Shown: piece after piece, positions 12,066-55,794 of the stretch | How positions within the stretch are numbered: position 1 is the stretch's first letter | Layout of the letters: the number at the start of each line of letters is the position of its first letter | NCBI RefSeq assembly: GCF_905475395.1 | Contig: NC_058340.1 | Span: forward strand, 149,501 to 213,500 | Source of the DNA: Chrysoperla carnea | Taxonomy: Eukaryota > Arthropoda > Insecta > Neuroptera > Chrysopidae | DNA: 64,000 bases | Direction of reading: 5' to 3' | Translations under genes and position numbers: made by a program | Notes under the pieces: model-generated | What the model was told of the DNA's origin: nothing | Database searches by the model: none | The model's input: the letters and a program-made list of their open reading frames with translations, nothing else

Positions 12066-12595
12066 CATACACTATCAGGTACTACTATTTCCCTTGTAAC
12101 TTATATTCTCCTAATACAAATGTTAAAAATTTTCATAATTTTTGGTGAAATTAGCTTTGAAAAAGTAACATGTGAAAATGGAAAATTGGCTATAACTCGA
12201 AAACGGTTGGTCCTAGAGCAAAAAGGACGAAAATTTTGAGCCACTCCTGAACCTCTTGCTTAAAATGTTTTTCCAAATAACATCGATGAAAAATTCCGGG
12301 AAATTCGTGAAAATGGAAAATTTTGTTTAAAAATTGATGGATTTTTTCTCATTTTTTTGTGTTTTTTGGCCAAAATTACTTCAATTTTCTTCAATTTGTA
12401 TTAGGAGAATATAATGGGAGGTTAGTACACTAAGATTTTCAGCAAAAAGATTTTCATTTTCTTTTTTATTTGCACATAAGGTGCAAATAATTCTCTAAGT
12501 AAATGAAACGAAACGAAACGAAGCGAACAAATAGTTAAAAGTTTTATACTAATTAATTAATACCAGAAAGCAGAAAAAGGTTTTTAGGGTGAAAA
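12066..12595 (-). repeat. Composite repeat unit (blocks A and B), inverted relative to the 49-kb array
   Basis: Block A, 12101-12414 (~314 bp), is bounded by TTATATTCTCCTAATACAAA and its complement TTTGTATTAGGAGAATATAA. Block B, 12415-12595, has TTTGCACATAAGGTGCAAAT and a run of CGAAACGAAACGAAACGAAG. The flank CAGGTACTACTATTTCCCTT is the complement of the linker between A and B in the units at 48.9-51.1 kb. No protein. It lies 125 bp past the USP39 stop codon. Confidence 0.85.
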
Positions 12596-13083
12596 CAAAG
12601 AGCATAGGGTAGAGGAGAAGCAGCCCATATGAGCTAATGCAAAGAGCATAGGATAGAGGAGAAGCAGCCCATATGAGCTAATGTAAAATCGTAGTATACG
12701 AGTTTCAGCGCCTCTACCGAGTCAGGCTTTCAAACTTAATAGTTAATAGTCACCCCCGCAAAGTAGTTAAACTTAATAGCCATACCCGCAAAGGCCGACA
12801 AACTTAATAGTTGATCGCCTCAGACTCCAGATGTCACTTATAATTATACTTCTGCTTCTTGTCTATCCTATAGTCTTTGAGCTAATGTAAAATCGTAGTA
12901 TACGAGTTTCAGCGCCTCTACCGAGTAAGGCTTTTAAACTTAATAGATAATAGTCGCCCCCGCAAAGTAGTTAAACTTAATAGTCATACCCGCAAAGGCC
13001 CACAAACTTAATAGTTGATCGCCACAGACTCCAGATGTCACTTAAAATTATATTCCTGCTTCTTCTCTACCCTATGCTCTTTG
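12596..13083. mobile_element. MITE (hAT-like, 8-bp target duplication) expanded into 2-3 tandem copies
   Basis: Ends are CAAAGAGCATAGGGTAGAGG and, inverted, CTCTACCCTATGCTCTTTG. Flanks GGTGAAAA (12588-12595) and AGTGAAAA (13084-13091) agree at 7 of 8 bases. The neighbouring block B sequence reads GGGTGAAAACACTTAC without a gap in uninterrupted units elsewhere, so the insertion site is clear. Inside: a 44-bp start (12596-12639), a whole 240-bp copy (12640-12879) and a third copy missing its first ~36 bp (12880-13083). A solitary 240-bp copy lies at 55555-55794. Confidence 0.85.
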
Positions 13084-13115
13084 AGTGAAAACACTTACTT
13101 ACTTACCTTTTCCCT

Positions 13116-13930
13116 ACCGGTGGTGCCATCTGTGTTGAATGTATTGAACTAAAATTTTATTAAGACGGCAGTGCCATCTGTGTTGAATGTAATGAACTAA
13201 AATTTGACGGTGGTGTCATCTGTGTTGAATGTATTGAACTAAAATTTTATTTGGGCGGCAGTGCCATCTGTGTTGAATGTATTGAACTAAAATTTGACGG
13301 TGGTGCCATCTGTGTTGGATGTATTGAACTAAAATTTGACGGTGGTGCCATCTGTGTTGAATGTATTGAACTAAAATTTGACGCTGGTGCCATCTGTGTT
13401 GAATGTATTGAACTAAAATTTGACGGTGGTGCCATCTGTGTTGGATGTATTGAACTAAAATTTGACGGTGGTGCCATCTGTGTTGGATGTATTGAACTAA
13501 AATTTGACGCTGGTGCCATCTGTGTTGAATGTATTGAACTAAAATTTGACGCTGGTGCCATCTGTGTTGAATGTATTGAACTAAAATTTGACGGTGGTGC
13601 CATCTGTGTTGGATGTATTGAACTAAAATTTGACGGTGGTGCCATCTGTGTTGGATGTATTGAACTAAAATTTGACGGTGGTGCCATCTGTGTTGAATGT
13701 AATGAACTAAAATTTGACGGCAGTGCCATCTGTGTTGAATGTATTGAACTAAAATTTGACGGTGGTGCCATCTGTGTTGAATGTATTGAACTAAAATTTG
13801 ACGGTGGTGCCATCTGTGTTGAATGTATTGAACTAAAATTTTATTAGGACGGCAGTGCCATCTGTGTTGAATGTATTGAACTAAAAATTTATTCGGACAG
13901 TTGTGCCATCTTTGTTGAATGTATTGAACT
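13116..13930 (-). repeat. 42-bp minisatellite array 1
   Basis: Some 18-19 units of a 42-bp period with core GCCATCTGTGTTGAATGTAT then TGAACTAAAATTTGACGGTG. Units vary mainly at one codon-sized spot (GAATG or GGATG) and at GGTGGT, GCTGGT or GGCAGT. As 42 is a multiple of three, both strands are open for nearly 200 codons; these are by-products of the repeat, not genes. Edge units have ATTTTATTAGGACGG instead of ATTTGACGG. Confidence 0.93.
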
Positions 13931-14105
13931 TTAATTTATTTCTTATTTATTTTTTCTATTAATTTACTAAATTAATTTGTATCTTTTGAATTGTAGTTTA
14001 AATGTAGAAAATGGAAAATTTTGTTTAAAAATTGATGGATTTTTTCTCATTTTTTTGGCCAAAATTACTTCAATTTTCTTCAATTTGTATTAGGAGAACA
14101 TCATG
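13931..14105 (-). repeat. Right end of the composite repeat, with a partial block A
   Basis: 13931-13998 (TTCTTATTTATTTTTTCTAT, AATTTACTAAATTAATTTGT) is the complement of 51600-51665 at the edge of the other minisatellite. 14007-14101 is the last third of block A and ends with TTTGTATTAGGAGAA. The spacing shows that the 12-14 kb locus is one or two rearranged units of the family seen at 49-52 kb. Confidence 0.75.
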
Positions 14106-14271
14106 CTAGGTTAGTAAGGTTGTGGATGTGAATGATGAACTTTTTTTAAAATATTTTTTATAATTTTTATTAATATTCAAATGAAATAATAAAATGAACA
14201 ATATTTTAAATTTAAATAAATAATAAACAAAACAAACAAAGTATTGATTGTTTTCAGTCATTTAATTATAA

Positions 14272-17200: not shown

Positions 17201-20200
17201 AAGTAAGAGGTACCATTTGAAATTTCAAAGTTGGGATGGTTAGGGGCGAAGGAATGAAACTTAAAATTCTCTAAGTACCATTTTTGAACATTATCCTCGA
17301 TATCTAAATGATCGTGTTTTCACTCAAAACAATAATCAATCACATCACATTAAAAGTTAATAGTTTTGATATGAACGTACTGTATATGATTGTGTTTGTA
17401 ATACACATTGTATAACCACACATACATATTACTTTGTACATCCTGTATAAATATAATGTTTACCATAGCAACCAGTAAATAATATATCTAATAATATCTA
17501 TAAATAAAATTATTATTATATATAAAATTATAAATAAATAAATAAATAATGAATAATAATAATAATAATAAAAATAAATTAATAACAATAAATGAATTAA
17601 ATAAATTAAATGAAGAATGTGAATTAAATATAAATAATGATAAATTATATCAATTACAAAATAATGCTAAATTACGTGCAATTACAACAACTAAAACATA
17701 TCAAGAATTTAAGTAAGTTTTACCCTTTATTTATTTATTTATTTATTAACTTTTAATTTAATTATACATTTAATTGTTTAAATACCATGTTACTCTATCT
17801 TATACCTACTTATCCATAATAATCCCATTTTAATACATACTATACAATTTGCATCTAATGTGTGCCCTCATCAGTAAACAATGATGTTTCAAACAAAAGT
17901 TGTTGATTTTTTGATAAGAAACATTTTCTACATTTAAACTATTGTTCTATCTGTAACGATTTACAAGACCCAATTGACTAATGTTGCTCATTTATGAACT
18001 CGACCTCACTTTCGACGTCCTGAATGCGTTGTTAAAATTTCAGTTTGATATTTTTTTCCATTTTTGAACTATCGTGTCGACAGACAAGCAGGCGGGCGAA
18101 CAACCAAAAATGGACTAATTAGATGATTTTATGTACAACTATACCAAAATTTTGTTGGTACCATCAGTATTTTTAACCTCTAGTTACATACTTGGTACTA
18201 AACTTTTTATACCATGTAATAAAAATTAAATGTAGTTACATTTATTTATACAACAAAAAAAGAGGTTTTAAACAATTCTACAAAACTAAACTAATGAAGA
18301 CTTTATGTTTATGTTTTGATTTTAATTGAAATTGAATTTAATTGAAAGACACATTACATTCTAGACATAGAATATTATACAGATGTAATCAGATCATACC
18401 GAAAAAATAAGGCATCCCTCGTAAATGTTCACCTTATTTCAGATTTAGCCTGGAAGAACTGGTTATTCATCAAAAACAATAGTATTAGTTTTTAAACAAT
18501 ATTAAATTTGAGATCAAGTCGGGTTTTGTAAGACTGATACTTTATGAGATACAGCTTTTCAAAGTTTGTTTATTTTTTTCAAGTTATACGATTTTATACA
18601 AAATTTCGTCTTGTAAATCGTTAAGAGATAGAACAAAAATTTAAATGTAAAAACTGCAAGGTTCGTTCCCCCCTTCCCGGGTTTAATTTGATTGAATCAT
18701 ATATACTTGAGTATTTAAACACAAATACCAGATGATATTCGTGTTTGTTTGTCTGTCTGAATTCTCTTCTATTTGATACTCTTTTGATTTAGATGTAAAT
18801 ATAATGACTTTTATAAATAATTAAATATTTATTGATATTGTTTCAGATCGATTGTTTCAGCTGCACATTTAAAATCATTTGAATGTAAAAATAATAAAAT
18901 AACATCATCAGATCCATCTAGTGCTACTTCTAGTACAACTAACTAATAACAACTAATTATGTTGCTGTAAATGATAGTTTAAAGTCTTTTAATCACAATA
19001 AACACAGTTTTAGGACCTCATACGGATACAAATTTTGAATTATAATATTAATTGTATAAAAATTAACATCAAAAAAGTTTTCATTATAAAGTAAATTGAT
19101 CACAGATTATGTTTATGTAAACAAATATTAAATTATGCTCCTTTCTTAAAAGAAAACTTTAGTTTTTAACACTTTTACGATATTATTTATAGCATTTTCT
19201 TACATTTAATAAATATAAAGTATGATATTTACTTACCATTATCAACATCATCATTATCATTATCATTATCATGATTATATTGTTGTTGTTGTTTAAATTT
19301 ATTAAAATTAATTAAATATTGTTGATATTTCTCATGATATTCTTTACGTAAACGTTCAAATATTTTATATAATTGTTGTTGTTGTTGTTGTATTGTTGTT
19401 GTTGTTAATGTATTAGTATTTGTTGTATTTGTATTTGTTGTATTTGCTTTTAATGTTTCAACATGTAAATGACATAATAATGGACCAGCTATACACCATA
19501 ATTCTGTTTGTATTCCAATATTTTTTATATTACATAACCAATTTAACCATCTTAAACAATAATAATAATAATAATAAATTAATTAATTAATTATATTTAT
19601 TAACTTTTAACTGGTATCGTGCGATCCATCCCACATATTTACTGCTTTATAATACTCTTAAGTTTTTGTGTTACGGTTACGCGATTCTATTATTTATATA
19701 TTATTAGAAGTGGAGATACCAGGGAACATTTTACTTTCGTTTTCTTAGTAATACGAAGCAAAAATGTTTCGAAAACTATTGAAAATTGGCCATGACGCTA
19801 TAAGGCCGAGGATGAACCAAGTAGGAGTGATTTTCATGAAGATGAAGTTATAATTGACAGAAAAGAAGTGGAGAATGTTAATTGCTGGGCAGACGGTACA
19901 GTTATGAAAGAAGATGATTCTAGTATAAGTAGTTCTAGTCAAGAAGAAGATATCATTATAAATTCAAGATATTTTACAGACAAGAACAGTTTTAAATACT
20001 CTAAAACATCTTCTAGTCGTCACACATCGTTCATACGAGATTCAGATTGCATATTCAAAAATTTTCCTTGATATGACTAATATCAAAAAATTTGTTAACG
20101 TACACAAAAGATCCTAAAAATAATCAGTCTCAAAGCGACTAGTCTAACTGTAAGTAAAGCTGGAACATCAAGGTACAAATAAAGCCCTTGTTATTTATGT

Positions 20201-20963: not shown

Positions 20964-21799
20964 TATTATTTATTTATTTATTTACAAATAAATAAACAAC
21001 GGTAACTTAATATTATAATTATATTCAAACAACAAACTAACATTCTTCATTCATTCATTCTAATCTAACCAAACATTTTAGTTTTTTATTCTTTATGTCA
21101 ACGAGAATCGTGTGTCGTGTGTCGTGTTTGATTGACGAATACAGTGCTTCCATCTGTAAAAGTTATTTTAGGGTGCGTTCCGTTATTCATTGCAAATACT
21201 GTACGGTGCTCTTAGTGGAAAGAAATTCATTTTATTATAGACTTCCAGTACACTGCCACAGTATTGTACAGACATTATGATGTCATAAATCACCACCATT
21301 TTAAGCATTTACTGAAGTTTTAAAAGTCAGGTTAATCTTTAGATATAATTTCATGATGACGTTTACGTTGGCACTTAGCGATAAATTAGAATTTCACCTA
21401 GCTGCATAAAATAAAACTATGTGCAGCGTCAAATTTAAAAGATGTAACTTCATGATGAAGTTGATACTGGCTTTGAGCGTTAAATTAGGAATCCACTTAA
21501 CTGAAAACAATAAAACTATGTCTAGCGTCAAAGAGTAAAAAGGAGCGACAAAAAACAAAAAGGTTGATTATTTATTAATCCATAAGCTTATTTTTAATAA
21601 AACATATGTAATGATAATGCTTAACAACTATATCCATAATGGGTGGTAAATATGATTCATAAAAATAATTGAGCGTCAAGCTTTATCATACATCTTATAC
21701 GTCATAACTCAAAGTGGTGATTATAATGTGTGTCAGAATGCACCCTTTATTTGATAAATAAATAAATGGTTGATGTATTGAAATTAAATTTAAATAAAA
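20964..21799. other. Divergent upstream region of TAF5L and ALG14
   Basis: About 840 bp between start codons. Most of it is occupied by the 21172-21749 inverted-repeat element, so the usable promoters must lie in the ~200 bp next to TAF5L and the ~50 bp next to ALG14, or inside the element (inference). Confidence 0.5.
21172..21749. repeat. Inverted-repeat element with nested CATGATGACG copies
   Basis: Outer ends AGGGTGCGTTC (left) and GAATGCACCCT (right) are inverted. Inside are at least two direct copies of the CATGATGACG family (TTTCATGATGACGTTTACGT at ~21350; ACTTCATGATGAAGTTGATA at ~21448), each followed by a GCGATAAATTAG or GCGTTAAATTAG stretch, then GTCAAAGAGTAAAAAGGAGCGACAAAAAAC (core AAAAAGGAGCGACAAAAAAC). 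Confidence 0.65.
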
Positions 21800-47229: not shown

Positions 47230-48894
47230 ATTAACCAAGTTAATATATAGCAAACTGTTGTGTGACAGTTGTTTGATTGGCTGACAATGACTACAAAAAT
47301 AACAATCAATGTAAGAAAGTAACAACATTATATAATCGTTTTGGATTAATTTTTATGTTTATTAAAAATTATTTTATTAAATAATAATAATAATAATATT
47401 AATATAATTATTGTTCCTTATGTACAAATAATTAATTAATTAATTACATTATCAAATTGATATAATTTTATTTAAATATAACATAACTAAACAATTATTT
47501 TAATAAATATAAATATATTACATTATATTTATATTAAAATAAAATATAAATATTATAATTATAATTATTATTATTTATAATCATTAATTTAATAATATTA
47601 TATTGTGTTGGTTTGTGTTGTGATTAATGAATTATCATTTAATTTTTAAAGAGTTGTGTGTATTATTTATAAATAAATAAAATGATTATTAATAATAATA
47701 ATATAATATAATATAATGTATTATAATTAATTTGGTTAGTGATTGATTATTGATCATTATTTTTACAAAATGATTTTAAAACACAAAATAAAAATAAAAT
47801 AAAATAGAATTGAATTAAATTTAAAATAAAATTAAAATTAAAATGCACTACCACTGCCATATTTAAAGTACCTTTATTATTAATTATTATTATTATTATT
47901 TTTAAATTAAATATAAGTACAATACATATAATACATATAATACATAAATATAATATGTATAAAATAAAAAAATGTAATGTTGTATATATAATATAATATA
48001 ATATAATGTAAATATTATTAATTAATTATATAAATATGTACCTATCTGTAACGTATAATGTATAATATATGATGTGTTTGTTTATTTATATTACTTATAA
48101 TATAATTATATTATATTATATTATATATGATACGTACATTATTAAATATTTTTAATTAATTAATTATATTTTTATTGTAAATATAATTAATTAATTATCA
48201 TTTAATAATCTATATTCTGTATAATACAGATATTTAATACAAATCACACTGACAGATAAAAATATTTAAAAAAACTAAATCTTATATTAAAAAAAAAGAT
48301 TCTTCGTTTTATTTGAGATTTAATTATTTATTTATTTATTTATTTTTAATAATAATGTACGTACGTACAATACAAATAAATAAACATATTGATTTACATT
48401 TACTTTTTATAATTATAATTTCATTTTTATCAAACAAAATAAATTATAATATCTATCTATGATATTATAAGATATATGATTGTATATAGATGTGTTGTGG
48501 AGCTACTATTGTTATCATAAACATTGGATGATGAATTGTAAGGTGACACAACACACAACCATCACCAGCATCACCACCACCACCATGATGATAATGATAC
48601 AAACGATCCACAATCAATAATACTTACATTTTATTTACTTTTAACTATAAACTATTATTATTATTATTATTAATTATTATTACATTATATTTACTTATTT
48701 ACTTACTTACTTACTTCATTTATTTTTAATTTGTTTTTGTTTTTTTGATTGATTGAATTCTAATTCTTAATTAAATACATAAAATTAAGAATATTATTTT
48801 ATTTGTTAAATAATAAATAATAAAGAATACAAAATGAATTTCAAATATTATTTTATTATTACCTTTTATTTTAAATATTTATTACAAAATGTAA

Positions 48895-51460
48895 ATCTTT
48901 TTATGAAAATCTTAGTGTACTAACCTGGCATTATATTCTCCTAATACAAATTGAAGAAAATTGAAGGAATTTTGGCCAAAAAACACAAAAAAATGAGAAA
49001 AAATCATTCAATTTTTAAACAAAATTTTCCATTTTCACGAATTTTGCGGAAATTTTTCATCGATGTTATTTGGAAAAACATTCTAAGCAAGAGGTTCAGG
49101 AGATGCACAAAATTTTCGTCCTTTTTCCTCTAGGACCAACCGTTTTCGAGCTATATTTTCCATTTTCACATGTTACTTTTTAAAAGCTAATTTCACCAAA
49201 AATTATGAAAATTTTTAACATTTGTATTAGGAGAATATAAGTTACAAGGGAAATAGTAGTACCTGATAGGGAAATGGTAAGTAAGTGTTTTCACCCTGAA
49301 AACCTTTTTCTTTTTTCTGGTATTATTTTATAAGTATAAATAAAACAATTTTAACTATTTATTTTGTTCGTTTCGTTTCGTTCCATTTACATCATAGCGA
49401 ATTATTTGCACCTTATGTGCAAATAAAAAAGAAAATGAAAATCTTTTTATGAAAATCTTAGTGAACTAACCTGGCATTATATTCTCCTAATACAAATTGA
49501 AGAAAATTGAAGTAATTTTGGCCAAAAAACACAAAAAAATGAGAAAAAATCATTCAATTTTTAAACAAAATTTTCCATTTTCACGAATTTTGCGGAAATT
49601 TTTCATCGATGTTATTTGGAAAAACATTCTAAGCAAGAGGTTCAGGAGATGCACAAAATTTTCGTCCTTTTTGCTCTAGGACCAACCGTTTTCGAGCTAT
49701 AGCCAATTTTCCATTTTCACATGTTACTTTTTAAAAGCTAATTTCACCAAAAATTATGAAAATTTTTAACATTTGTATTAGTTCAATACATTCAACACAG
49801 ATGGCACCACCGTCAAATTTTAGTTCAATACATTCAACACAGATGGCACCACCGTCAAATTTTAGTTCAATACATTCAACACAGAAAGCACTGCCGCCCG
49901 AATAAAATTTTAGTTCAATACATTCAACACAGATGGCACTGCCGTCAAATTTTAGTTCAATACATCCAACACAGATGGCACCACCGTCAAATTTTAGTTC
50001 AATACATTCGACACAGATGGCACTGCCGTCAAATTTTAGTTCAATACATCCAACACAGATGGCACTACCGTCAAATTTTAGTTCAATACATTCAACACAG
50101 ATGGCACTGCCGTCAAATTTTAGTTCAATACATCCAACACAGATGGCACCACCGTAAAATTTTAGTTCAATACATTCAACACAGATGGCACTGCCGCCCA
50201 AATAAATTTTAGTTCAATACATTCAACACAGATGGCACCACCGTCAAATTTTAGTTCATTACATTCAACACAGATGGCACTGCCGTCTTAATAAAATTTT
50301 AGTTCAATACATTCAACACAGATGGCACCACCGGTATGGAAAAGGTAAATAAGTAAGTGTTTTCACCCTAAAAACCTTTTTCTTCTTTCTGGTATTAATT
50401 AATTAGTATAAAACTTTTAACTATTTGTTCGCTTCGTTTCGTTTCGTTTCATTTACATAGAGAATTATTTGCACCTTATGTGCAAATAAAAAAGAAAATG
50501 AAAATCTTTTTGCTGAAAATCTTAGTATACTAATCTTTTTGCTGAAAATCTTAGTGTACTAACCTCCCATTATATTCTCCTAATACAAATTGAAGAAAAT
50601 TGAAGTAATTTTGGCCAAAAAACACAAAAAAATGAGAAAAAATCCATCAATTTTTAAACAAAATTTTCCATTTTCACGAATTTCCCGGAAATTTTTCATC
50701 GATGTTATTTGGAAAAACATTCTAAGCAAGAGGTTCAGGAGTGGCTCAAAATTTTCGTCCTTTTTGCTCTAGGACCAACCGTTTTCGAGATATAGCCAAT
50801 TTTCCATTTTCACATGTTACTTTTTAAAAGCTAATTTCACCAAAAATTATGAAAATTTTTAACATTTGTATTAGGAGAATATAAGTTACAAGGGAAATAG
50901 TAGTACCTGATAGGGAAATGGTAAGTAAGTGTTTTCACCCTGAAAACCTTTTTCTTTTTTCTGGTATTAATCAATTAGTATAAAACTTTTAACTATTTGT
51001 TCGTTTCGTTTCGTTTCGTTTCATTTACATAGCGAATTATTTGCACCTTATGTGCAAATAAAAAAGAAAATGAAAATCTTTTTATGAAAATCTTAGTGTA
51101 CTAACCTGGCATTATATTCTCCTAATACAAATTGAAGAAAATTGAAGGAATTTTGGCAAAAAACACAAAAAAATGAGAAAAAATCATTCAATTTTTAAAC
51201 AAAATTTTCCATTTTCACGAATTTTGCGGAAATTTTCGTCCTTTTTGCTCTAGGACCTACCGTTTTCGAGTTATAGCCAATTTTCCATTTTCACATGTTA
51301 CTTTTTCAAAGCTGGTATTTCTGGTATTAATTAGTATAAAACTTTTAATGATTGAATTAGTATTTAAAAAGTGACATGTCAATAGAAACGAAATTGGAAC
51401 ACACATTCAGCGAATAATTATTAAATGTTTTTATATTTGTGTTAGGAGAAAATAAGGTGC
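48895..51460 (+). repeat. Higher-order tandem array of the composite A+B unit (~545 bp)
   Basis: Block A copies begin TTATATTCTCCTAATACAAA at 48931, 49477, 50570 and 51112; two are whole (48931-49240, 50570-50884) with the inverted end GTATTAGGAGAATATAA, one is cut into by a minisatellite and the last is damaged. Each is followed by a linker (TTACAAGGGAAATAGTAGTA) and block B (GTGTTTTCACCCTGAAAACC, CGTTTCGTTTCG run, TTTGCACCTTATGTGCAAAT). Start-to-start distance is ~546 bp without and ~1,090 bp with the minisatellite. Short open frames of 60 codons inside block A repeat with the unit and are not genes. Confidence 0.88.
49780..50333 (+). repeat. 42-bp minisatellite array 2
   Basis: About 13 units of TTTTAGTTCAATACATTCAA then CACAGATGGCACCACCGTCA or a CACTGCCGTCA variant: the reverse complement of array 1. 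It begins exactly where block A would read GTATTAGGAGAA (here GTATTAGTTCAA) and ends before the GTAAGTGTTTTCACCC start of block B. Confidence 0.93.
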
Positions 51461-51670
51461 CAGGAATTATAATGAATGGTAATAAGAATAATAAAATTAG
51501 TAAAAATTTCAATAAAATTTATTTTATTACGATACAAATTAATATTTTTTTTTTAAAACTGGCTTTAACAATTATTGCCATCCAACCATTAACAAGCTAT
51601 ATTTAAAATACAATTCAAAAGATACAAATTAATTTAGTAAATTAACAGAAAAAAATAAATAAGAAACAAA

Positions 51671-52235
51671 TTTTAGTTCAATACATTCAACAAAGATGGC
51701 ACTGCCGTCGAAACAAATTTTAGTTCAATACATTCAACACAGATGGCACTGCGGTCGAAATAAATTTTTAGTTCAATACATTCAACATAGATGGCAGCAC
51801 TGTCGGAATAAATTTATTAGTTCAATACATTCAACACAGATGGCACTGTCGTCGAAATAAATTTTTAGTTCAATACATTCAACACAGATGGCACTGTCGC
51901 CGAGATAAATTTTTAGTTCAATACATTCAACATAGATGGCAGCACTGTCGGAATAAATTTATTAGTTCAATACATTCAACACAGATGGCACTGGCGTCGA
52001 AATAAATTTTTAGTTCAATACATTCGACACAGATGGCACTGTCGTCGAAATAAATTTTTAGTTCAATACATTCAACACAGATGGCACTGTCGCCGAGATA
52101 AATTTTTAGTTCAATACATTCAACACAGATGGCACTGCAGTCGAATTAAATTTCTAGTTCAATACATTCAACACAGATGGCATTACCGTTTAAATAAATT
52201 TTTAGTTCGATATGTTCAACATAGATGGCACCACC
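51671..52235 (+). repeat. Minisatellite array 3 (diverged, ~47-bp period)
   Basis: About 12 units of TAGTTCAATACATTCAACAC then AGATGGCACTG and a linker CGTCGAAATAAATTTT. The core is that of arrays 1 and 2, but the linker is longer, so the period is ~47 and open frames are lost. The unit pair with AGCACTGTCGGAATAAATTTAT recurs (~51781 and ~51926), suggesting a later multi-unit duplication. Confidence 0.88.
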
Positions 52236-52254: not shown

Positions 52255-53063
52255 TAATCAGAAATGAATAGGGGTAAGTGAATTCCTTTAAAATAGAGAA
52301 TTGCAAATAATAGAATTAAAATTAATAATTTTATTAACAAGATTAACAACAGGCAAAGAAATAAAAAATTCAGAAAACCCTCAACAAGAATTCGTAAATA
52401 AATGTTTCAACAACAAAAATTGTATTTATATTTTTACCGACGGATCGAAATTATCCGTTGACGGTAATAATCGTGTTGGCTTTTCCATTTGGTCAGTTAA
52501 TAATCACTTTAAAATCCAGATCTCTCATCGATCTTCACTTCTGATTAATAATTTCATCACAAATGATGATAGATTTTCGGATTCACAAAGGGTACTATCA
52601 GAATTGACAGCTATAGGATTTTTAAAATGATGTTTAAACATCCTATAGCTGCCAATTTTGATAGTACACTTTGTGAATCCGAAAATATTTAAAAACTACT
52701 ATCATTTTATGACGAAATTATTAATTGTATGGCCTTTATTAAAGCGTAACACTCAGCAGTGAAGATCGATGAGAGATCTGGAATCTAAAGTGATTATTAA
52801 CTGACCAAATGGAAAAGCCAACACGATTATTACCGTCAACGGATAATTTCGATCCGTCGGTAAAAATATAAATACAATTTTTGTTGTTGAAAAATTTATT
52901 TACGAATTCTTGTTGAGAGTTTTCTGAATTTTTTCTTATTTTGCCTGTTAAAAAAATTATTAATTTTAATTCTATTCTTATTAAAAGTAATTAAAATTTT
53001 TCTGGTTCTATTTGCAATTCTCTATTTCAAAGGAATTCAGTTACCCCTATTCATTTCTGATTA
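52255..53063. repeat. Large palindrome made from a LINE RNase H fragment
   Basis: Left arm 52255-52620 and right arm 52640-53063 are inverted copies; the outermost bases are TAATCAGAAATGAATAGGGG and its complement. Both arms encode part of an RNase H domain: CIYIFTDGSKLSVDGNNRVG then FSIWSVNNHF. The left arm lacks, and the right arm keeps, a ~60-bp piece resembling the SAECYALIKAIQ helix, so the right arm is the fuller one. It lies directly after minisatellite array 3. Spacer about 19 bp. Confidence 0.9.
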
Positions 53064-53467
53064 GAATCACCTAATTAATACTTAATTTGAATACCCTGTA
53101 ATCATTTTTATTAATGTTTGAATGCACAACATTTTTTACATTTAAACGTTTGTTGTAGTTTTAACGAATTACAACAAGATGTGTCCTACGCTACGGATTC
53201 AGTTGATATATGTTGCTTATTTACGTTACGACCAACACAACTCACTTTAAACACTCTATAAATACTAATTTCATTCAACTTGATATCAAATGATTTCGTT
53301 TTCACGTTAGTAAGATGTTAGTACAAATTTAAAAACAAGTGAAAACAAACAATTGACTGAGTTAATTGTTGAAATACCATGCATAGTCAGTGTTGATTTC
53401 TTTATCACATTACACATACATAACTGATAATCAAGTATAGTACATATTATAAAATTTCCGCCTAATT

Positions 53468-53880
53468 GGCGCCCTCACGGGTAAACAGTGATGTTTACGA
53501 AAAAATGTTTCAAACAAAAGTTGTTTAATTTTTGATAAGGAACATTTTTTACAATTAAACTTTTGTTCTATCTCTAACGGTTTACAAGATGGGTCCTACT
53601 GATCCAAGACCCAATTGACCTATGAAGCTTATTTACGAACTTGACCTCAATTTTTACGTGTTGAGTACGCTGTAAAAATTTCAGCTCGATATCTTTTTTC
53701 GTTTTTGAGTTATCGTGTCCACAGACGGACAACCGGAAATGGACTAATTAGGTGATTCTATGAACAGCTATGACAAAATTTTTTTCCTAGCATCATTATT
53801 TTTAAGCGTTACAAACTTGGGACTAAACTTAATATACTATGTATATTTCATATATACATGGTATAAAAAAAAAAACGGGT
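53468..53880 (+). repeat. Interspersed repeat family D (copy 2, fullest)
   Basis: Carries all marks of copy 1 (ACAAGATGGGTCCTACTGAT, GACCCAATTGACCTATGAAG, GAGTTATCGTGTCCACAGAC, GGAAATGGACTAATTAGGTG) and ends CATATATACATGGTATAAAA followed by an A run, which suggests a retroposed 3' end (inference). Confidence 0.75.
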
Positions 53881-55554: not shown

Positions 55555-55794
55555 CAAAGAGCATAGGATAGAGGAGAAGCAGCCCATATGAGCTAATGTA
55601 AAATCGTAGTATACGAGTTTCAGCGCCTCTACCGAGTCAGGCTTTCAAACTTAATAGTTAATAGTCACCCCCGCAAAGTAGTTAAACTTAATAGCCATAC
55701 CCGCAAAGGCCGACAAACTTAATAGTTGATCGCCTCAGACTCCAGATGTCACTTATAATTATACTTCTGCTTCTTGTCTATCCTATAGTCTTTG
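55555..55794. mobile_element. Complete 240-bp MITE, 8-bp target duplication (hAT-like)
   Basis: Ends CAAAGAGCATAGGATAGAGG and, inverted, GTCTATCCTATAGTCTTTG. The flanks GTTTATAC are identical on both sides (55547-55554 and 55795-55802). Length and text nearly equal to the central copy at 12640-12879, so the two are young relatives. The 8-bp duplication fits hAT transposition; no transposase inside. Confidence 0.92.

Follow-up and report, generated by a model that had tools for sequence, protein, structure and literature searches.

The window analysed here is a 64,000-nucleotide stretch of the Chrysoperla carnea genome, lying near the left end of chromosome 4 (C4:149501-213500; chromosomes are abbreviated C1 to C6, with L or R for the left or right end), and it holds two loci built from the same blocks. 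At locus 1 (12072-14116) the plus-strand order is linker L, block A, block B interrupted by an insert, a minisatellite, block C, a partial A and the start of B. The stretch from the linker through A and B to the end of the minisatellite (12072-13937, plus strand) has an inverted counterpart at 50913-49778, which belongs to a minus-strand locus 2 (48886-51313) made of B-L-A units, with minisatellite array 2 sitting between B and A. The features are:

12072..12100, plus strand: linker L (CTATCAGG...), the left limit of homology at locus 1
12101..12416, plus strand: block A, 316 bp, ending in perfect 21-bp inverted repeats (TTATATTCTCCTAATACAAAT) and with a strong foldback
12417..12595, plus strand: first part of block B, with the hairpin TTATTTGCAC-ATAAG-GTGCAAATAA
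12596..13083, plus strand: hAT-like MITE inside B, with ends CAAAGAGC and a 204-bp internal duplication
13084..13117, plus strand: end of B and its join to the array (GTGAAAACACTTACTTACTTACC...)
13118..13937, plus strand: minisatellite array 1, 19 monomers, mostly of 42 or 48 bp
13938..14007, plus strand: block C, 70 bp, common to array 3
14007..14116, plus strand: part of A (209-316), followed by 11 bases from the start of B
48886..49240, minus strand: locus 2, start of B and a full A
49240..49471, minus strand: locus 2, B and L from one unit
49475..49781, minus strand: locus 2, A (11-316), joined directly to the array
49778..50333, minus strand: minisatellite array 2, 13 monomers, the first five in the order of array 1
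50350..50913, minus strand: locus 2, the unit that adjoins array 2 (its B, A and L), 98.8% identical to locus 1
50922..51313, minus strand: locus 2, more B and an A with an internal deletion
51597..52234, minus strand: block C and minisatellite array 3 (48-bp monomers; the array itself at 51663-52234)
55555..55794, plus strand: solo hAT-like MITE with a perfect 8-bp duplication GTTTATAC (8 of 8 positions)

The motif TATATTCTCCTAATACAAAT occurs ten times in the window at up to three mismatches, against 0.09 expected, and the foldback of block A is stronger than in all 100 shuffles (z -3.64). When the MITE is skipped, the two loci are identical at 723 of 732 aligned columns (98.8%), a count that leaves out gaps, including a 29-bp duplication at locus 2; the homology spans L, A, B and the B-array junction and runs on into the first monomers. 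The first five monomers of arrays 1 and 2 match in order (48, 42, 48/47, 42 and 42 bp) with small internal differences, and array 3 has block C and a variant of the last monomer in common with array 1. The window loci are copies of one duplicated segment, inverted with respect to each other, and the recurrence of the B-array junction at the same point is therefore one event, not two.

A first-pass annotation, made from the sequence of the window, had described a single order of linker, A, B, minisatellite and a further A at both loci. Its first part, linker-A-B-minisatellite present twice and inverted, stands, while A-B-minisatellite-A as one unit does not. Beyond the array, locus 1 continues with the 70-bp block C and then with A from about its position 209, and locus 2 with A at about 11-17 and without C, so the far-side copies of A differ. 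What was taken for a single A-B-minisatellite-A at locus 2 is a tandem array of B-L-A units spaced by 546, 1093 and 542 bp. Arrays 1 and 2 do join B at the same point, as claimed, and share five monomers there, although as parts of one duplicated segment. The earlier description also lacked the hAT-like insertion, which splits B at locus 1 and is absent from locus 2. This insertion is flanked by an 8-bp site duplication (GGTGAAAA/AGTGAAAA, 7 of 8 positions matching); like the solo copy at 55555-55794, it combines the short inverted ends CAAAGAGC with the 8-bp target duplication by which hAT MITEs are recognised. The solo copy has matches of 98-100% elsewhere in the genome.

Several further structures lie in the window. 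A near-palindrome (52255-53063; 79%) abuts array 3 and carries in both arms a motif that may be RNase-H-like; a Pfam search of the palindrome returned no match. It is followed at 53064-53761 by an element with inverted ends AGAATCACCTAATTA, of which a related copy lies at 17860-18130, and a 99-bp tandem duplication occupies 21341-21532. Linker L was considered as a decayed minisatellite monomer and rejected (Smith-Waterman scores against 300 shuffles each, p from 0.32 to 0.98). Exact-motif scans of viral contigs and genome contigs gave no match.

We then place the unit in the whole genome (559,487,470 bases in 337 contigs), where it recurs as a B-L-A repeat of about 546 bp arranged head-to-tail. 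With block A alone as the query, at least 77 matches were found, 69 of them within 250 kb of a scaffold end (among those listed: C6R 22, C2L 18, C1L 16, C3R 8, C4L 5). These counts are lower bounds, the best 40 candidates being scored per search, and the C3 terminal array is not among the matches listed. Binned at 20 kb, 18 of 25 bins with A are terminal, against an expectation of 0.5% (binomial p 6e-36). On five chromosomes A lies within 250 kb of one end and never of both (among the matches listed), and 63 of the 69 terminal matches point to the scaffold end, locus 1 of the window being among the six exceptions. A scaffold end is not necessarily the end of a chromosome; the first 2 kb of C2 and of C4 are N. 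This unpicked census supersedes an earlier list of 49 matches hand-picked from 154, which held mostly A/B matches of about 330 bp or more, with three that were partly or wholly minisatellite, and from which hAT-only and short matches had been dropped. Blocks of 3.5 kb are 99.97% identical between C6R and C2L, and the C1L block is 99.0% identical to these. Concentration next to chromosome ends, and near-identity between non-homologous ends with orientation kept, are what is expected of a subtelomeric repeat. A search of the open-licence literature found no prior description of the B-L-A repeat.

In the census, copies away from the ends account for 8 of the 77 matches and 7 of the 25 bins (C3 87.9, C5 15.2 and 55.6, C4 1.6 and C6 33.2 Mb), and further non-terminal copies were read at C3 11.4 and C4 75.6 Mb; the unit can therefore move or be moved. 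Of the A/B places lying more than 250 kb from an end, seven were read (C5 15.16 and 55.58; C3 11.38, 87.876 and 87.90; C4 75.56 and 1.62 Mb), and at six of them a minisatellite adjoins B/L-A, the exception being C3 87.876 Mb, where none lies within the stretch read. At C6 33.24 Mb, a place known from match lists alone, a minisatellite match lies 0.3 kb from an A match. Block A has its 21-bp inverted repeats and the B hairpin follows about 50 bp further on. Where a right end reaches the hairpin region of B and does not continue as the unit, it stops inside the hairpin in four of six cases (L007, L029, L077 and L078, and not in L023 or L052); at both window loci the right sides stop before it. 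Among the copies read there was no clean single B-L-A with both ends and, by eye, no constant left end of a minisatellite-B-L-A arrangement.

The minisatellite has a wider distribution. A 168-bp probe gave at least 70 genome matches, which we grouped by eye into 39 places: 10 beside A/B (including C6 33.24 Mb), one at C3R 94.085 Mb without A/B, and 28 dispersed, without a listed A match alongside and away from the A-bearing ends. This grouping is not a frequency, since places such as L005, L006, L008, L010, L077 and L079 are too diverged for the list. Among the matches listed, only the two loci of the window have the 42-bp core at 87% identity or more, and only C4 133-135 and 201 kb have the 48-bp form at 80-84%; the remaining matches have 67-76% identity. 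Beside A/B the minisatellite takes either orientation, with three kinds of flank and several joins. In insert type M1 (L005, L007, L008, L010, L022) it runs opposite to A-B; type M2 (L006, L009, L014, L018, L023) is near-palindromic in the two both-arm copies tested (L006, L009); type M3 comprises the window and L002. Two of the inserts, at C2 218 kb and C3 87.90 Mb, form near-palindromes (82% and 79%) whose self-complementarity extends over about 700 and 520 bp, and each of their arms contains minisatellite units.

Twelve other minisatellite places were sampled, and eleven belong to one dispersed family; the twelfth, L090 at C3R, lies outside it. This family is a canonical non-autonomous Helitron: its members begin with TCTATA after A in 9 of 11 cases, all 11 end in CTAG before T, 8 of 11 have the exact 3' hairpin, and 4-9 monomers of 47 bp stand at a fixed place. 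The exact 30-bp 3' end has 103 copies in the genome, on all six chromosomes and almost evenly split by strand (54/49), and one of the 100 listed lies within 250 kb of an end. At least seven more dispersed minisatellite places have a Helitron 3' end within 1.5 kb (matched by eye, among those listed). The genome encodes Helitron Rep/helicase proteins, with 64 PF14214 (Helitron_like_N) matches, 19 of them in mechanical open frames of more than 1,100 aa. Seven PF14214 matches in one orientation lie at C3:3767553-3809834, with five of six spacings at 5,813-5,815 bp, probably a tandem array of an autonomous Helitron. Although the family shares the minisatellite superfamily with the window (about 67-75% identity to the window core), it differs from the window composite in its TC...hairpin-CTAG ends and its dispersal on both strands, and A, B and L were not found in its 11 loci. 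The proposal that the window minisatellite lies inside a canonical Helitron was rejected because the ends of the family, allowing up to three mismatches, have no match in the window.

We consider it likely, with a probability of roughly 0.7, that the window composite is a subtelomeric tandem repeat spread by exchange between chromosome ends and carrying minisatellite inserts. Subtelomeric (telomere-associated) tandem repeats with embedded telomere-type arrays are a known class, and the unit resembles them in adjoining chromosome ends, in its polarity, in its 99% identity between non-homologous ends and in its short TTGGG interruptions; it differs in its 21-bp inverted repeats, the hairpin near one end, the minisatellite inserts and the copies away from ends. 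The building block is the B-L-A unit of about 546 bp, which stands head-to-tail at one end of at least five of the six chromosomes and is mostly oriented to the end. Such units would be amplified within arrays through unequal exchange and copied from one chromosome end to another, as the near-identical blocks on different chromosomes suggest. Minisatellite-bearing DNA appears to have entered the arrays more than once, and it is seen there with three flank types and in both orientations. One minisatellite-bearing chromosome 4 unit was duplicated in inverted orientation to give the two window loci, after which internal changes arose in the arrays and the hAT-like MITE landed in locus 1. The minisatellite superfamily itself was probably dispersed by Helitrons, in one family of which a related array has a fixed place, and may have reached the subtelomere by that route. 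The first-pass annotation had proposed a transposable element that carries its own satellite; a Helitron family carrying such a satellite does exist (11 of the 12 places sampled), but A, B and L form a subtelomeric tandem unit. It had also held that independent spread of A, B and the 42-bp core would speak against its proposal, and about half of that pattern is seen: among the matches listed, the core is confined to the window loci, and no listed A lies beside 28 of the 39 minisatellite places.

The alternative that survives best is that minisatellite-B-L-A-B(1-60)-hairpin is a single non-autonomous transposon of the Helentron-like type, bearing 21-bp subterminal inverted repeats and a 3' hairpin; it would insert preferentially in subtelomeres and build its head-to-tail arrays through rolling-circle copying. 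We keep it as an unlikely explanation because the minisatellite adjoins B/L-A at six of the seven non-terminal places read (and at C6 33.24 Mb by the match lists) and because four of the six right ends that do not continue stop inside the B hairpin, as a transposon terminus would. The genome encodes Helitron proteins, and HINEs, or non-autonomous Helentrons, have in excerpts of their description a 3'-end palindrome and tandem repeats between flanks (PMC7492417), comparable to satellite-like repeats beside flanking modules with a hairpin near one end. However, the minisatellite of the window and its relatives beside A/B does not lie between constant left and right modules: orientation, flanks and joins vary among copies, with neither a constant order nor a defined subTIR pair, the copies read show by eye no left end common to them, and on the right both window loci end short of the hairpin. 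Neither a site duplication nor an empty site speaks for this reading. The window lacks the ends of the Helitron family described above. The strong chromosomal and orientation bias, with 63 of 69 copies pointing to the end, is also unlike that of Cg_HINEs, which according to an excerpt of the same source occur in both orientations and without chromosomal preference (PMC7492417).

Less probable still is that the repeat was brought into the arrays by a Tetris-like foldback element whose inverted arms contain the minisatellite. In Tetris, as far as excerpts of PMC4079207 describe it, the long inverted repeats contain tandem repeats, and modular, rearranged forms occur; the near-palindromic inserts at C2 218 kb and C3 87.90 Mb, with units in both arms, are of this form; array 3, moreover, abuts the near-palindrome at 52255-53063. 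The window, however, departs from what these excerpts describe, in that arrays 1-3 are not enclosed by a pair of inverted arms (and neither is the L007 insert) and inspection by eye showed no target duplication of 8-10 bp beside the window arrays. That ordinary independent satellites were joined by chance in a repeat-rich end region is very improbable: the minisatellite superfamily and the A/B unit do also occur apart, but the two loci share their B-array junction and their first five monomers, and minisatellites lie beside A/B at six of the seven non-terminal places read. The first-pass annotation was right that the two arrays are not independent satellites.

The subtelomeric repeat leads on to the scaffold ends themselves. 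The last 12 kb of C3 contain 244 TTGGG and no CCCAA, with the G-rich strand outward, in a higher-order repeat that combines A(1-236) with 146-bp tandem copies of A(79-236) and with (TTGGG)n tracts. At C6R, C2L and C1L, too, a truncated A is followed by similar tracts; at these three ends and at C3R, L is followed by inverted (CCCAA)n. The C3 scaffold ends in A/(TTGGG)n, and other ends show satellites or N. Truncated A alternating with G-rich-outward (TTGGG)n at the C3 scaffold end and near three other ends would thus place the family where a telomere is expected. A 306-bp satellite lies distal to A/TTGGG at C1L and C6R and occurs on C2L at 147-151 kb, and C5L ends in a form of it. A 165-bp satellite terminates C2R, C3L, C4R and C5R, opposite the A-bearing (or, on C5, the 306-bp) ends, and might, at a guess, be centromeric; neither satellite was found in the last 3 kb of C1R and C6L.

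TTGGG is not an exclusive marker of ends. On C1, among the arrays listed, (TTGGG)x5 occurs at least as far inward as 17.9 Mb and again at 69.5 Mb; by eye, 25 of the 26 listed arrays beyond 40 kb are on the minus strand, pointing to the left end. When interstitial C1 arrays were sampled, 11 of 12 lay inside one dispersed repeat, and TTGGG was rejected as an exclusive end marker on that account. This repeat (L065-L067 and L069-L076; 141.8 kb to 69.5 Mb) has an internal TTGGG/TTAGG tract, its left flank resembles parts of the 306-bp terminal satellite at 73-79%, and its arrays thin out away from the C1 left end (among the arrays listed). A telomeric reading is weakened because TTGGG tracts occur inside repeats elsewhere.

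In the lacewing Nineta flava, excerpts of a 2025 telomere survey report (TTGGG)n arrays of 228-8005 bp (PMC12564400), and the C. carnea tracts share with this telomere the pentamer, the outward G-rich strand and the lacewing subfamily of the host, but they are short and found only inside a higher-order repeat. For C. carnea the excerpts give TTAGG as reported absent and, on the same assembly, no motif satisfying five criteria, one of which is arrays of at least 300-400 bp (PMC12564400). Tracts of tens of bases to about 110, as found here, would fall short of that length, which would explain why the survey missed them. It is possible, although on balance doubtful, that the chromosomes of Chrysoperla carnea physically end in the A/(TTGGG)n higher-order repeat, a composite of short telomerase-type TTGGG tracts interleaved with a hairpin-bearing subtelomeric unit, homogenised by recombination and missed by searches for long pure arrays.

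The above analyses suggest that a single window here brings together two things that resemble one, namely a subtelomeric unit that is copied from one chromosome end to another, and a superfamily of minisatellites that has mobile carriers of its own, a clean Helitron among them. The telomere sequence of the common green lacewing has so far been unidentified, and the repeat family of this window leads to outward-facing TTGGG at a scaffold end, so that the question of its telomere becomes testable with a probe and long reads.
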